A stretch of DNA of 64,000 bases from Arabidopsis thaliana. Its lineage: Eukaryota; Streptophyta; Magnoliopsida; Brassicales; Brassicaceae. The stretch lies in NCBI RefSeq assembly GCF_000001735.4, contig NC_003070.9, positions 24,847,971 through 24,911,970 on the forward strand. Direction: 5' to 3'. Position numbers and translations under genes: made by a program. A model generated the notes under the pieces. The model saw nothing but the letters and a program-made list of their open reading frames with translations, searched no databases and was not told where the DNA came from. This document shows, piece after piece, positions 1,746 through 63,515 of the stretch (positions within the stretch are counted from its first letter, which is position 1; each line of letters begins with the position of its first letter).

Positions 1746-3480
1746 TTAGTCTTCATTGTCTTCTTCTTCTTCTTCTTCTTCTTCTAGGCTGCGGATACAA
1801 ATATAAGTACCCTTATACAAACCCATCGGACACAAGATATATTCAGGAATAAACATGAAGTCCTTCTCCGGAGTTTGGAAGCTCACTTTCTGAATCCGAT
1901 TCATCTCCGACGATCTAAACGTCAAAGTGTTACCTGCCGTCGAGTAGGATAGCTCATAGGAGAACTTTCCAACTCCTGGAGCAGAAGGTGCTATACAATT
2001 CACAGTCCAAAACAATCCTTGTGGTGGTTCCTTGAAACACTGAAGCACAACCAATGGACCATCTGAATATTGCTGAAGTACCAAACTTTTCGACTCGAAG
2101 TCCATGCATACATGCATGGAATAGCCACAACTGAAACGTGTCCATAATTTTTTGTGGTTAGCAGCGTAGTGACTGTAGAGATCCTTGTACACACCCGCGT
2201 AGTTGCAGTTTGGTGCAGGACAATAGCACAGAGCGAAGCTGCATTTCTTCTCATGGACTAACTCGTTGCCATAAGAGAATGTCTCGGTGCAGCCATTTTG
2301 GCGTTTGGCAAGGAACAATGATTGCTTTGACAACTTTCTCCATTATTATGCATCGGTAGTTACCAATAGGCAGAGAGCAGGATGGGCATTTGTACCTCAG
2401 TTCAATACAGCAAGAAGAGCAAGCTACATGTCCATTGTCACACTGAAAAGCAAGTCACACAGAGTTAGTAACTCGGACTACAGGCATATGAAACTAGAAC
2501 CAAATACAAGCTTACACAAATCTAAACTGGTAACGCTCACACATAACCACATGACTACATTCTTCATTTCCTTCAATTATCATCTTCCTAATGCAACCAC
2601 AAAGTTTTAGAATTCTGAATCATCTAATTACTCTAAGGCAATTTACATTTGTAAGGCATGAGTTTCTAGCTAATCAGCGTGATCCTAAAATCATAACAGT
2701 TTTCAAAACTCCAAATCAACCAGGAAGAAGAGAAGTAGTAACAAGACCTGAAAGATACTAATCTTGAGTGCTTTACTGCAAACAGGACAATCGAGAAGAT
2801 CTAGCTGGGACAACGTCCCAGATGGCACAACCACATCTCTTCCACCATTCTCGCCGTTTTCTTCATCAATGGAGGGAACTCGTAGCCTCTTTTGGCGGCT
2901 ACTCGACGCTTCTCCAGCAACAATGGGACATCGGACAATGAATGCTTCAACAACTCTCTCCATTATTCTAGACCGATAGTTACCAATTGCCAAAGAGCAG
3001 TAAGGGCATTTGTTACTTACATTAGTACAGCAAGAAGAACAAGCTATATGTCCTTTGTCACACTGAGACACAAAAAACTCACAATACTTAGTTATTCAGA
3101 TACAAACAACATTTTCCCCAAAATCATCCAACTACTGTAATGAAATTGAAATTTGTAAAGCATGAATTTTTAGTTAAGTCACTGTAATCACCAAAAGCAA
3201 ACAACATTTTCCCCAAAATCATAAACCACAACAAATATTCAAAACTCTGAGTGGTGAAGTAAGAAGAGAAGACCTGAAAGATAGGAATGGTGAGTGCGTT
3301 ACAACAAATAGGACAATCGAGAAGATCTAGCTCGAACAACGTCCCAGATCGTACTACCACATCTCCTCCACCATTTTCGCCTTCTTCTTCAACAATGGAA
3401 GGAACTCTTTGTCTTTTTGGACGGCTGCTCGAAGCTTCTTCTCTGGCGAGGGCTTGCTCGGCGTTCGTGCCTTTCACCAT
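1746..3480 (-). CDS. SINL1: SINA-like E3 ubiquitin ligase, fused tandem copy (SINL1)
   Basis: Minus-strand exons 3480-3274, 3062-2748 and 2324-1746 give an open frame of 366 aa. Exons 1-2 encode a complete C3HC4 RING split by the intron conserved in all paralogues. Exon 2 does not continue into the SIAH zinc finger. It runs directly into a second copy of the exon-1 sequence (basic and acidic N-terminus plus a RING first half ending ISIFQ). The next RING second half, at 2442-2330, is still readable (CDNGHVACSSCC), but relative to SINL2 it has a net two-base loss near 2290-2312. The open model therefore skips it, using an AG at 2326-2325. The rest of exon 3 supplies most of the zinc finger, the TRAF-like C-domain and a poly-Glu tail. 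Role by family: substrate-recognising ubiquitin ligase. The catalytic state of this fused form is uncertain. Confidence 0.8.
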
Positions 3481-3584
3481 GGCTATTGGAATTTTTGGAA
3501 GGGGTTAAGTCTGGAATCCAAAGAGTCTCGCTTCGCAATGTATATAAAGAAAAGGTGCGTTAGCCCTAGTTACCTTCTCTTATT

Positions 3585-3592
3585 TTTCCCGC
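3585..3592 (+). promoter_or_regulatory. E2F-like site upstream of SINL1
   Basis: The sequence TTTCCCGC lies about 105 bases upstream of the SINL1 start codon. It matches the E2F consensus WTTSSCSS. The paralogous position upstream of SINL2 also carries such a site. A TATATA run at about 3541-3546 lies between this site and the ATG. The motif match is direct; binding is inference. Confidence 0.4.
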
Positions 3593-3698
3593 TGAAACGT
3601 TTCCAGAGTTTGGAATATCAAACGTTTCCTTTCTACTACAATAATGACATGCAGCATAAAATTAAAATGAGACACATAACTCAAAGACTAACAAAAAA

Positions 3699-4244
3699 AT
3701 GTTTTCCAACATTGAATACAAGGCTGTCGCATCACTCCTCCTCGAAAACCTCGAAATAAGCTTAGTTTCAACAGAACCAATTATGAGCACCATTGTTGAT
3801 TCGTTCTCACTTGCTCTATCTTTTGTTAATTCTCCTAGTCCTCCAAAAAACCATGAGCCTTCTTGTCAAAACATGCCAGGTCCTGAGATCATCAAAGAAG
3901 TGAGTTACTAGCAAAAAGCTAAACTCTCATTGACTCGTTCCATATGTAATAAACAAAGTTCATGAGTTTCTAACTCAAAAATCAAGTGTGAAGTAGCACG
4001 ATATCTTTTTATACGTTACTTCAGGCCATCTAATACATACATGTAAACCTGCAGCTTTTGCAGTTGGTGATGAATTGATGACACAAACGGTTCCAAAAAT
4101 GATTCAATTAGACCAAACTGTGTCTGAATCGTTTATGCCTCATCTCGCAAGTCGCAACAATTGACCAACAAGCACTTACCATGGAGGACAAACAACACAG
4201 ACCTTAACATGAACGAAGAATTTGATATGAACGATGCTTTTTGA
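3699..4244 (+). pseudogene. WRKY63-like pseudogene lacking the WRKY motif
   Basis: The segment from 3699 reads as a close copy of WRKY63 exon 1 (MFSNI start, conserved VSTEP and DSFSLAL blocks, then IIKE before a GT). The region that should hold exon 2 with WRKYGQK and the first half of exon 3 is absent. Homology resumes near 4024 with sequence matching the end of the zinc finger (HTCKAF-like) and continues with frame disruptions through the acidic C-terminus to about 4244. No DNA-binding domain can be made. It stands head-to-head with SINL1, which suggests a duplicated WRKY plus SINA module. Confidence 0.85.
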
Positions 4245-4835
4245 CAGCAAGTACTTTTGATCTATAAAGCTTTTTATGCTCCTTCTTTTCAGGTCCATGT
4301 TTGTAATTTAGATTCTTATACGTTACCTATTCTGCTTCAAGTTTAGCTCATTGTCACTATGTAAAAATAAACATAGCTGAAAGAACTTGAATATGCATGA
4401 AAATGCTAGACTGTCTTATACACTAAAAATATACAAGTAGAAAAAAAATAGATATCTTGGAACATATTGATAACCTCATTAGCAGAGGACAATAGTTGGT
4501 TCCTAACTTTATTAGCAATGAGTAATGTAACCAAATCTCTATTATCAATGCAGAGATCCTCAAAATCATGGATCATCAGAAAAACACATTGTGCAAAGTA
4601 TAGCATCTAAATTATCTAATGAAACTCCAAAAACAGAGTTAAGGTTTTAAAAGCTGAGAAATTATTCTTGCAGAATCAAATAAAGCCCTGTAAAATTCTC
4701 AGAGCAATGAAACTTATTCGTTTAGAGTGCATAGATGACAAACTAAAGTAGCTGCAGAAAAACATCAGAAATGTATTTAAAGGGTAGATGAAGTTATGAA
4801 CAGAACGACCTACAATGGATATGATATGATGATTA
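4245..4835. other. Intergenic between pseudo-WRKY and SINL2
   Basis: AT-rich sequence containing the probable SINL2 3' UTR. I see no supported gene; short reading frames here are low-complexity. Confidence 0.5.
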
Positions 4836-58480: not shown

Positions 58481-59266
58481 TCAAACGCCGCTAACTCTTT
58501 TGTTTAAATATGGGATGTTCTCGGGTTCAGTTTGAGCGATCGCATTGGATAATCCGACTTCACCAACGTAACCGAGTCGGTTCTTCCTTTCCTCCATTAT
58601 CCCTTTGGTAGATTTGTAGTAGGTACCATACAATATTAACTGTACTAGTCCAAAAACACACCCAATCCCATTTGGTATAGCCAGGAATGGATCAAAAGGC
58701 ACAAAGCCATAAATTGTCCAAACACCTGCGTTTAGAAAACCAACTACCGATAACAAAAACGGCATGAACTCCAAACTTTTTGTTTTTATTACCATTTTCA
58801 TGACAGACAATGGAGAAGCATACATCATAGCGTTGAAAACGCAAGATACAATCCCAACGCTTATCGTCCGTTGATCGGTAGTGTGTTCGAGAGTTAAGAC
58901 CAAAACCGCAAGGGTAGCCACAAACACAACTTGAACGGTTAAAACAGCGGATATTACCAACCGATGTTGTTGACGACCACAAAATACAAAAAAGATTGTA
59001 AGGAAAACGATTTCGATCGTGATTCCTATACCGCTTATTGTAACGAGCAAGGTGCTATCAGGATGAACCATAGGAAGTCCATAAAGAGCACGAACCAAAC
59101 AGTTTAGGAGAGTCGCTAAATATGGCAATGGTGAGTATTTTTCCACTGACTTCTTTTTCACTATGTGTATAAACGTTGGCGTTGGCGATAGAAACAAACA
59201 TAGAGAGATGAAGTTTCCTAATATACCAACAATCTTCCGAATAAGATTCAACTGTTCATGCACCAT
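58481..59266 (-). CDS. SWEET6: SWEET sugar transporter 6, intronless
   Basis: A single uninterrupted reading frame of 261 aa from the ATG at 59266 to the TGA at 58481-58483. It has seven hydrophobic segments arranged as two MtN3/saliva triple-helix repeats. Blocks include [20 protein letters not shown] at the N-terminus, [20 protein letters not shown], and in the second repeat [15 protein letters not shown] and [20 protein letters not shown]. Family role: bidirectional uniporter of mono- or disaccharides in the plasma or vacuolar membrane. SWEET genes usually have several introns and this one has none. An upstream in-frame extension to 59431 exists but lacks SWEET homology, so I use the internal ATG. 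Confidence 0.93.
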
Positions 59267-59576
59267 ATTGTTATGATGAAGGGTAGTTATCTTGAAAGAA
59301 ATATAAAAAGACAAAATAGAAGAAGAAGGCAAAAAGCAAATTTGAGTAAGATTGCTCGATAGAGTCATGGTGAGTAGTTCATTTTCATAGCGGACAACAC
59401 GTGGAAACATTTTCCACGGGAGGAACAACACATGGATATATCAGAAGAAGTTAAACACACACACAAAAAAAGTCCAAACACATCGATCCACTACCAAGAA
59501 CAAAAAACGTTGGACAATGGATATGAAAAATTTGGGTTGCGTAAAATATCTATAATATTCAATTTAATAGTATGCT
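59267..59576. other. SWEET6 upstream region and hAT target site
   Basis: This is the SWEET6 5' flank on the minus strand, related to 56530-56700. It ends with the left target duplication AGTATGCT at 59569-59576. Confidence 0.55.
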
Positions 59577-60638
59577 TAGGGATATCAAAATGGGTAACCC
59601 AACTCAACTTAACTCATAATCAAATGAGTTTAAATGAGTTGGGTCAACCCATAACTCATTTAATTTAATGGGCTGAGTTGTTAAATGGATTAACCCATTT
59701 AAGTAATAATTTAATTAATTATTATTATAAAATAATAATAAATAATTATCATTATTAATTCATTATCATCAAACTTAGGATATTTACGGATTCCACTTTT
59801 TATTGGTTTACGTTTTTGGCGGGAAAATCACGGGTTTACGTTTTTGGCGGAAAAATTATAGGTTTACGTTTTTGGCGGAAAAATTATAGGTTTACGTTTT
59901 TGGCGGGAAAATTACCGCTTTACGTTTTTGGCGGGAAAATTACGGATTTACGTTTTTGACGGGAAATTCACGGGTTTACGTTTTTGGCGGGAAAATCACG
60001 GATTTACATTTTTGGCGGGAAAATCACGGGTTTATGTTTTTGGCGGGAAAATCACGGATTTACGTTTTTGGCGAGATAATCACGGGTTTACGTTTTTGGC
60101 GGGCAAAACACGGGTTTACGTTTTTGGCGGGAAAATCACGGGTTTACGTTTTTGGCGGGAAAATCACGGGTTTATGTTTTTGGCGGGAAAATCACGGATT
60201 TACGTTTTTGGCGGGAAAATCATGGGTTTACGTTTCTGGCGGGAAAATCACGGATTTATGTTTTTTGGTGAAAAAATTACGAGTTTACTTTTTCTCAATT
60301 TCATCGCTTGTATATTTAAGAAATTTGGAAAAATATTAATTTTATTAAATTGGTTTAGATGTGTTGGTTAAACTTAAATTGGCATTGATTTAGAGATTTT
60401 AGTTGGTTTAATTCAATTTTACAAAACTTGATAGTTTAATTGGGTAACCCATTGAAACCATTAACCATTACAACCCAACTCATTTTACTCATCAAACCAA
60501 TTGACTCATCAAACCAATTGACTCATCAACTCATTTGACCAATCAACTCATTTGAGTCAAAAATTTTAACTCATTAGGGTTCATGGGTTGAGTTGAGTTG
60601 AGTTGACCCATGAATTTTGACCCATTTTGACACCTCTA
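59577..60638. mobile_element. Non-autonomous hAT-type DNA transposon carrying an E2F-site array
   Basis: The element is 1062 bp and flanked by a perfect 8-bp target duplication, AGTATGCT (59569-59576 and 60639-60646), the hallmark size of hAT elements. The terminal repeats are 19 bp: TAGGGATATCAAAATGGGT on the left and TAGAGGTGTCAAAATGGGT as the reverse complement of the right, 16 of 19 identical. Subterminal zones hold many AACTCATTTGA and CCCAACTCA-type motifs in both orientations, as expected for hAT transposase binding. The centre is a 28-bp tandem array. There is no transposase reading frame. The repetitive frames of 127-147 codons in the array are a by-product of the repeat. Confidence 0.88.
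59806..60282 (+). repeat. 17-copy, 28-bp tandem array of E2F-type sites
   Basis: Units of 27-29 bases (mode 28) carry the core at about 59812, 59840, 59868, 59897, 59925, 59952, 59980, 60007, 60036, 60063, 60091, 60119, 60147, 60175, 60204, 60232 and 60259. The consensus is GTTTTTGGCGGGAAAATCAC followed by GGGTTTAC. Ten units contain the intact palindrome-like E2F site TTTGGCGGGAAA, and one more has TGGCGGGAAA. The others differ by one or two bases. All units have the same orientation. Confidence 0.95.
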
Positions 60639-60646
60639 AGTATGCT

Positions 60647-61242: not shown

Positions 61243-63515
61243 ATGGAAAATGGTTTCTCGTTGGTGCCCAAAGAAGAGGAAGAAGAAGAAGATTATAGTA
61301 ATGAGAAATCTGAAGATCAGACGAGTTATTATTTGTCAACAGAGATGATGAAGAAGGTAAGCTTCATGGCTGCACCAATGGTGGCTGTGGCTGCTTCTCA
61401 ATACCTCCTTCAAGTTATCTCCATTGTTATGGCTGGTCACTTGGACGAGCTTTCTCTCTCAGCCGTTGCTATTGCCACTTCTCTTACCAATGTCACCGGC
61501 TTCAGCCTCATCGTAAATTCCTCCTCCTCCTCCTCCTCCTTCTCTCTCGACTTATAGACCTGTCCAAAGGACAAACATGCTAAGCAAAAAATTAGGGTCG
61601 CCAAATTTTTTTTATTTTTAAATATTAATGCAACTTCACTTTTTTTAGTAGTTATATCTTTAGGACTACCAATTTTTTGTTTTGATAGAAACTTACACCT
61701 TTTCAAAGTTATGGGAGTGTACACATTTCTTGTTTCATAACTAGGACCACTATTTTTATTGGACCGACTTTGCTGACTTAGATCGTTAGTTTGGATTGGC
61801 AGGTGCGTTAGAGACACTGTGTGGTCAAGCTTTTGGAGCTGGGCAATTTAGGAATATCAGTGCATACACTTACGGCTCAATGCTATGTCTTCTCTTGGTC
61901 TGTTTCCCAATCTCACTTTTGTGGGTTTTTATGGACAAACTCTTGGAGCTTTTCCATCAAGATCCTCTTATCTCTCAATTAGCTTGTAGATACTCAATCT
62001 GGCTCATACCGGCTTTATTCGGATACTCTGTTCTTCAATCTATGACTCGATTTTTCCAGTCACAAGGATTGGTTCTACCTCTCTTCTTGAGCTCTCTTGG
62101 AGCTCTCTTTTTTCACGTTCCCTTTTCGTGGCTTCTTGTCTATAAACTGAGATTCGGAATCGTCGGCGCCGCTTTGTCCATAGGTTTTTCGTATTGGCTC
62201 AACGTAGGTTTGCTTTGGGCTTTCATGAGAGACTCTGCTCTCTATCGAAAAAACTGGAATCTTCGGGCACAAGAAATCTTTTTGAGCATGAAGCAGTTCA
62301 TTACCCTAGCAATTCCCACTGCAATGATGACTTGGTAACAAAATCCTCTAAATTTTTTAAATTTGTTTGTTTTGATTTTCAATGGATCCCTGTCATTAGG
62401 GCTTCTTGATCTTTGGTCGTCATTGGATCTTTGATTCTATATTTTATGTTTTTTGGGCGTATGTAAAGCCTGGAATGGTGGTCGTTTGAGCTTCTTATAC
62501 TAATGTCAGGACTCTTACCAAACTCAAAGCTCGAAACATCGGTCCTATCCATTTGGTATTGTACAGATATCACTTTCTACAAATTTTAGTATAACATTTT
62601 TTCATTCAAACAAGCTTTTGACCTCTCAGTCTTTATTCTTTGAACAGCCTAACAATGTCGTCTCTGCATTACGTTATCGTGAATGCCATAGGAGCAGCAG
62701 CGAGGTTTTATAGTTTCCCAACTGTTCATAACAATCTATCATATCTATTTGTTCTTGAAACATTTCTCTGAACCATTGTTTTTGTCATATAATAGCACAC
62801 ATGTCTCAAACAAGCTAGGAGCTGGAAATCCAAAGGCAGCTCGATCTGCGGCTAATTCTGCGATTTTTCTTGGCATGATTGATGCAGCCATAGTAAGCAT
62901 CAGTCTCTACAGCTACAGAAGAAATTGGGCTTATATATTCAGTAATGAGAGTGAAGTCGCTGACTATGTCACTCAAATCACACCCTTTCTCTGTCTATCA
63001 ATTGGTGTTGACAGCTTTCTCGCCGTACTCTCAGGTAAACAGTTCACATCAAAATCGAAAGTCTGTATACATTAGAATGTACAGATCGAAGCCTTTGCAG
63101 CTGTTACTTGACCACCAAGAAAGCTAAATGTTCTTGTTCTTAGAAACCCTAAAATTCTTGCTTCTTCAGGAGTTGCTAGAGGAACAGGGTGGCAACATAT
63201 AGGAGCTTATGCAAACATAGGATCGTATTATCTAGTCGGGATCCCGGTAGGTTCAATCTTGTGTTTTGTAGTGAAATTGAGAGGGAAAGGACTTTGGATC
63301 GGTATATTGGTAGGTTCCACTCTACAAACGATTGTTCTTGCTCTTGTCACTTTCTTCACCAATTGGGAACAAGAGGTATATATACCTTTGCCTTTTTTAT
63401 ATTGTATTTTTCCTCTTCTGTTTTGCTAGAGTTTTGAATCTTGTTCTGATTTGGGTTTTAGGTAGCGAAGGCTAGAGACAGAGTAATCGAGATGATACCA
63501 CAAGAAATCATATGA
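61243..63515 (+). CDS. DTX8: MATE-family transporter DETOXIFICATION 8
   Basis: Seven exons, 61243-61512, 61790-62334, 62469-62555, 62648-62704, 62796-63034, 63170-63375 and 63462-63515, encode 485 aa. The N-terminus has a run of six Glu before the first membrane helix. MATE signatures are [47 protein letters not shown] and [14 protein letters not shown], with about twelve membrane segments. Exons 2-6 have the same lengths as DTX9 (545, 87, 57, 239, 206), which confirms tandem duplication. Family role: cation-coupled efflux of small organic compounds; the substrate is unknown. The ATG at 61243 is preferred over the upstream in-frame 61087 because it aligns with DTX9. Confidence 0.9.

Follow-up and report, generated by a model that had tools for sequence, protein, structure and literature searches.

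An old hAT-type MITE with an array of predicted E2F sites and its transposase-bearing relatives in Arabidopsis thaliana

The element and its neighbours

The window, by which we mean the whole 64-kb stretch of Arabidopsis thaliana DNA that was analysed (C1:24847971-24911970 of a genome of 119.66 Mb in seven contigs), contains a short repetitive element flanked by two transporter genes in divergent orientation. The features of the locus, in window coordinates, are listed below.

58481..59431, minus strand: ORF of a SWEET-type sugar transporter (PF03083; likely ATG at 59266, 311 bp from the element)
59569..59576, unstranded: left 8-bp target-site duplication AGTATGCT, identical to the right one
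59577..60638, plus strand: non-autonomous hAT element of 1,062 bp (genome family search, target-site duplication, ends)
59577..59595, plus strand: left terminal inverted repeat, 16/19 against the right repeat
59805..60293, plus strand: 28-bp tandem array, 17.5 copies, consensus GGTTTACGTTTTTGGCGGGAAAATCACG (Tandem Repeats Finder)
60310..60638, plus strand: 3' portion common to transposase-bearing relatives (sequence matches)
60476..60559, plus strand: 17-bp subterminal tandem repeats CAACTCATTTGACTCAT, 4.9 copies (Tandem Repeats Finder)
60620..60638, minus strand: right terminal inverted repeat, 16/19 against the left repeat
60639..60646, unstranded: right 8-bp target-site duplication AGTATGCT, identical to the left one
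61243..62338, plus strand: first two ORF pieces of a MATE transporter (PF01554; likely ATG at 61243, 605 bp from the element)

Taken singly, the first MATE ORF scores 22.7 bits, slightly below the Pfam cut-off of 24.9; the next lies well over it. The initial annotation had described, between SWEET6 and DTX8, a transposon with a perfect 8-bp duplication, terminal repeats that match at 16 of 19 positions and a one-orientation array of 17 tandem 28-bp units, at least ten of which contain an E2F-type 12-mer. The SWEET and MATE domains of the neighbouring ORFs agree with this placement at the level of gene type, the same AGTATGCT stands on either side of the element, and comparison of its ends, TAGGGATATCAAAATGGGT and TAGAGGTGTCAAAATGGGT, reproduced the 16 matching positions. 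The array, whose units show 88% matches, holds to its single orientation, with 10 exact copies of the 12-mer TTTGGCGGGAAA in the element, all on the plus strand and none elsewhere in the 64-kb window. The figure of 17 units agrees with the 17.5 copies reported by Tandem Repeats Finder; the seventeenth unit is degenerate, and 16 are recognized when up to 9 mismatches are allowed. TTTSSCGS is the consensus of E2F sites. The claimed match to it is borne out by the ten exact 12-mers, which fit the consensus, and by a total of 13 forward TTTSSCGS sites in the element.

The 8-bp duplication, terminal inverted repeats held in common with a hAT-transposase element (L054), presence in multiple copies and lack of a transposase of its own mark the element as a hAT MITE. 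Judged by these sequence characters, it is a non-autonomous hAT copy with an array of predicted E2F sites.

A family dispersed through the genome

A search with the whole element, of the kind proposed in the initial annotation, found further copies and brought the family to at least 40 distinct places with the window copy counted; from 203 first-look candidates, 40 went on to scoring, so that this number is a lower bound. When one mismatch at most was allowed, the end pattern was found at 74 places and its reversed control at 0, some of the 74 being the two ends of one element. Among these places are paired-end copies at C2:8554836, C1:19026884, and C5:10681264, which were left out of the sequences fetched. 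In 30 loci (L009-L038, including the window copy, L009), the 8-bp duplication is perfect in 20 and carries one mismatch in 4, the best end pair per locus having been kept by a ranking that took in the duplication match. The remaining 6 have at least two mismatches or no matching end pair.

With a rule of at most 9 mismatches per 28-bp unit, 40 copies yielded 756 units, or 7-33 per copy with a median of 18.5. The copy with the fewest units, L049, is one in which no end pair was found. L062 and L063, two additional copies, have both ends and contain 9 and 7 units, respectively, under a looser rule. When 45 sequences of the 3' end were placed in a tree, the terminal branch of the window copy was 0.025 substitutions per site long; at a substitution rate of 7e-9 per year, its age would be a few million years.

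The family is probably SIMPLEHAT2 of the Arabidopsis annotation, a hAT family by its name. Published descriptions portray SIMPLEHAT2 elements as producing siRNAs, as controlled by RdDM, or as silenced.

Transposase-bearing relatives and deletion breakpoints

L054 (contig C4) has the same ends and subterminal sequence as the MITE in the window. Across three ORFs it encodes a hAT dimerisation domain, a hAT RNase-H-like domain, and a BED zinc finger (Pfam matches PF05699, PF14372, and PF02892), and it contains an array of five units at 319-460, one of which has the exact core. Two further relatives, L055 (C5) and L061 (C2), retain parts of the transposase only; the rule applied to L054 gives four units in each of them. 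The array is thus part of the hAT lineage, since transposase-bearing relatives with the same ends carry 4-5 units. The initial annotation had named an array separate from the hAT ends as grounds for refutation; for the family of the window element, these arrays led us to reject that possibility. They also suggest that the array here was not captured by the MITE itself.

In L054, the array is situated 3' of the transposase ORFs; outside it, no TTTSSCGS was found. A role of the array in the transposase promoter is therefore disfavoured.

The array is longer in the deletion derivatives than in the transposase-bearing relatives. Alignment to L054 revealed where the derivatives break. The MITE, L062, and L063 match up to 443-445 and resume at 3806-3808, whereas the alignment of L055 skips from 446 to 1342 and that of L061 from 433 to 2613. 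All three deletion types examined (3/3, by alignment) thus break at L054 433-446, in the last two array units; alignments of tandem units can slide by one unit, so that the MITE break is placed only in the array or at its end. Compared with L054, L055 and L061 have additional breaks elsewhere. In the 3'-end tree (midpoint root, no support values), L054 groups with L061 and then with L055, the three forming one group that is set within the MITEs but distinct from them. This grouping favours separate deletion events; the common left breakpoint could instead reflect inheritance through successive deletions rather than a hotspot. Because the tree sets L054, L055, and L061 within the MITEs, growth from short to long arrays is deduced rather than proved. 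Repair or replication of the array may be prone to strand switching, which would generate both deletions and expansions.

One stretch of L055, from ~1873 to 4566 (reverse complement), comprises ~2.7 kb that does not align to L054 and lies between the transposase remnant and the 3' end.

Mutation spectrum of the array units

The units comprise 399 distinct sequences. Private changes were taken from 118 units, each seen once and a single step away from one of the 22 common units. Of these changes, 43 fell in TTTGGCGG and 55 in the 12-mer, compared with 33.7 and 50.6, respectively, if changes were uniform. The core has a higher G+C content, and comparison of CG sites guards against its influence: among the three CG sites of the unit, the one in the core had 16 private changes and each of the two in the spacer had 12. 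Private mutations therefore strike the core as often as the spacer, and we see no sign that the core has been maintained after insertion. Constraint on the E2F core was likewise sought by comparing private with shared variants in this family sample; Fisher p values ranged from 0.12 to 0.48, none of the eight settings being significant, and constraint after insertion was rejected as a candidate. Of the 756 units, 606 retain an intact core CG, whereas the two spacer CGs are retained in 540 and 546; units are not independent within or between copies. This modest excess could be at most a weak sign of constraint on the core while the element spread.

E2F-type arrays in other repeat families

On both strands of the genome, the exact TTTGGCGGGAAA occurs 1,561 times, compared with 3 for the reversed pattern, which excludes a chance origin of its abundance. 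Sites 1-100 of the listing, which extend to 8.28 Mb on C1, were fetched in 15 stretches and grouped by repeat; as the listing follows chromosome order, they represent one region and not a random sample. All 100 lie in repeats: 63 in the family of the window element (family A), 17 in family B (L039, L048), 12 in family D (L042, L044, L046, L051), and 8 in L040/L041 (family E) together with the second array of L053 (family C). Other repeat families also contain E2F-type arrays, in which the spacers differ. With probes from B, C, and D, many additional matching places were found in the genome.

Families A and E are hAT-like, and B probably is too, whereas C and D have a different appearance; the superfamily assignments of B, C, and D are tentative. 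The two copies of family E that were seen are 95.7% identical, and the 8-bp duplication in L041 coincides in its bounds with the match to L040. Nine loci from the other families were put through a generic scan for terminal repeats and duplications, and L041 alone yielded a clear 8-bp result. The ends of family C agree at 11/15 positions and are accompanied by a TAA duplication, as judged by eye. One match of the family B end probe lies next to a hAT transposase, in L064, a transposase-bearing relative of this family that is 74.5-83% alike in the longer matches. No TTTSSCGS was found in the 4,461 bp of L064. To judge from these sequences, family B may have gained its array separately, or a closer parent may exist.

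In L064, the 5' region of the transposase occupies the place that the array has in the family B MITE.

A possible common origin of the arrays was examined by comparing spacers between families beyond the core; only the A-E and C-E pairs passed correction for six tests, the family E consensus being drawn from 2.9 copies. The spacers of the possibly Harbinger-like L053:2790-4260 and of the hAT-like L040 and L041 (the C-E pair) are alike beyond the E2F core with a shuffle P of 0.0001.

The four family D loci (L042, L044, L046, L051) are AT-rich elements built from TTTTAAAA/TTGTAAATC repeats, with E2F-type sites close to both ends that are frequently in opposite orientation. The end probe of this family matches at least 40 places (40 scored of 157 candidates).

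Origin and role of the array

Amplification of E2F sites by Brassicaceae transposons, which the initial annotation had given as reported, is already known from published work as presented in reviews. These describe E2F sites that are amplified in hAT, PIF/Harbinger, and MULE MITEs as well as in Helitrons and are bound by E2Fa (Henaff et al. 2014, Plant J 77:852, via PMC12595863, PMC4110626); capture of the E2F motif by MITEs is placed, likely, early in Brassicaceae (PMC13317346). Of the E2F consensus sites of Arabidopsis, 73% are assigned to transposable elements in one account (PMC7956360) and up to 85% in another (PMC4110626). Like the window element, the transposons of Henaff et al. include hAT MITEs with an amplified E2F consensus, in Arabidopsis among other species; our comparison with that study runs through the citing reviews. 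The parental array, the breakpoints, the mutation spectrum, and the link to DUF321 come from the present analysis.

We consider it likely that the window element is an old, parasitic hAT MITE, an internal-deletion form of a short-array, transposase-bearing hAT whose array grew by slippage and now serves as a passive target of E2F/RBR. Relative to L054, the MITE lacks the sequence that separates the array from the 3' end. Deletion and array growth may have arisen by slippage or template switching, in gap repair or during replication, and copies would have been mobilised by transposase supplied in trans. By analogy with published work on such elements, the sites would bind E2Fa and attract RBR, and each copy would be bound passively instead of being retained by the host as a regulator. 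The sponge, cell-cycle-timed enhancer, replication-linked chromatin mark, and S-phase-assisted mobility suggested in the initial annotation are candidate roles for the copy in the window.

An unlikely alternative holds that selection acts at the level of the element. Binding of E2F/RBR would aid spread through open chromatin or the timing of excision in S phase, and arrays would be built and kept while the family is active. The spread of exact 12-mers over five repeat groups, as seen in the first 100 listed sites, may mean that the sites help elements, four kinds of transposable elements are described as having E2F sites (PMC12595863), and the core CG is kept slightly more often than the spacer CGs. 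Against this, the non-significant comparison of private with shared variants gives no support to such selection, the transposase-bearing relative of family B lacks TTTSSCGS, and L054 has a single exact 12-mer and no TTTSSCGS on the promoter side of its transposase.

Rather improbable, too, is that the array is a target for silencing, in which bound E2F-RBR recruits repressive chromatin and the sites act as the host's tag for transposons. In the account of PMC7956360, transposable elements hold about one-third of the RBR that is associated with chromatin in Arabidopsis, most of these element sequences have an E2F motif, and loss of RBR leads to mis-expression of some elements; binding of MITEs by RBR is also described (PMC7404004). 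PMC7956360 nonetheless treats the role of E2F in bringing RBR to transposable elements as not directly established.

It is tempting to speculate further that E2F-type minisatellites recur at internal deletion breakpoints of plant DNA transposons and that their occupancy by E2F/RBR in S phase gives the derivatives an advantage in transposition or re-replication, so that the arrays would constitute a convergent module of hAT and other, possibly Harbinger-like, families; we regard this as very improbable. Co-option by the host, with the array as an E2F-responsive element of the divergent SWEET/MATE promoter region, is scarcely credible: the element does lie 311 and 605 bp from the two likely ATGs, but the family sample shows no sign of constraint after insertion and SIMPLEHAT2 elements, if the name applies, are described as producing siRNAs, as controlled by RdDM, or as silenced.

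The passive-target reading and its alternatives have different consequences. If the arrays help these transposons, mobility draws on the machinery of the cell cycle, and a ready dose series exists in the natural copies, with 7-33 units in the 40 that were read. If they give no help, many and perhaps most perfect E2F sites are passive transposon debris, and E2F/RBR binding maps would need careful handling of such sites in the genome studied. The short-array, transposase-bearing relative renders the origin of the array testable.

DUF321 as, mostly, a translated array

Three ORFs of at least 60 amino acids overlap the element. The longest (147 amino acids) has a Pfam match to DUF321 (one ORF of three scanned).

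59928..60371, plus strand: spurious ORF over the array, PF03778 (DUF321), E 4.6e-59, judged no gene

The window array matches DUF321 in all three forward frames, and since three forward frames of one array all match, we judge that DUF321 is not a protein. The family is entered in Pfam as a protein family, whereas the match in the window is the translation of an array. No DUF321 was found in 14 control genomes, and a literature search for DUF321 together with Arabidopsis returned a single paper, on a fennel lipid transfer protein. DUF321 merits review as a protein family. In the genome studied, a search revealed at least 154 matches (150 of 2,129 candidates scored). Of the 150 listed, 138 lie within located copies of the window element's family, about 10 of these copies having guessed outer bounds, and 12 lie outside; DUF321 in this genome is mostly a translated transposon array.
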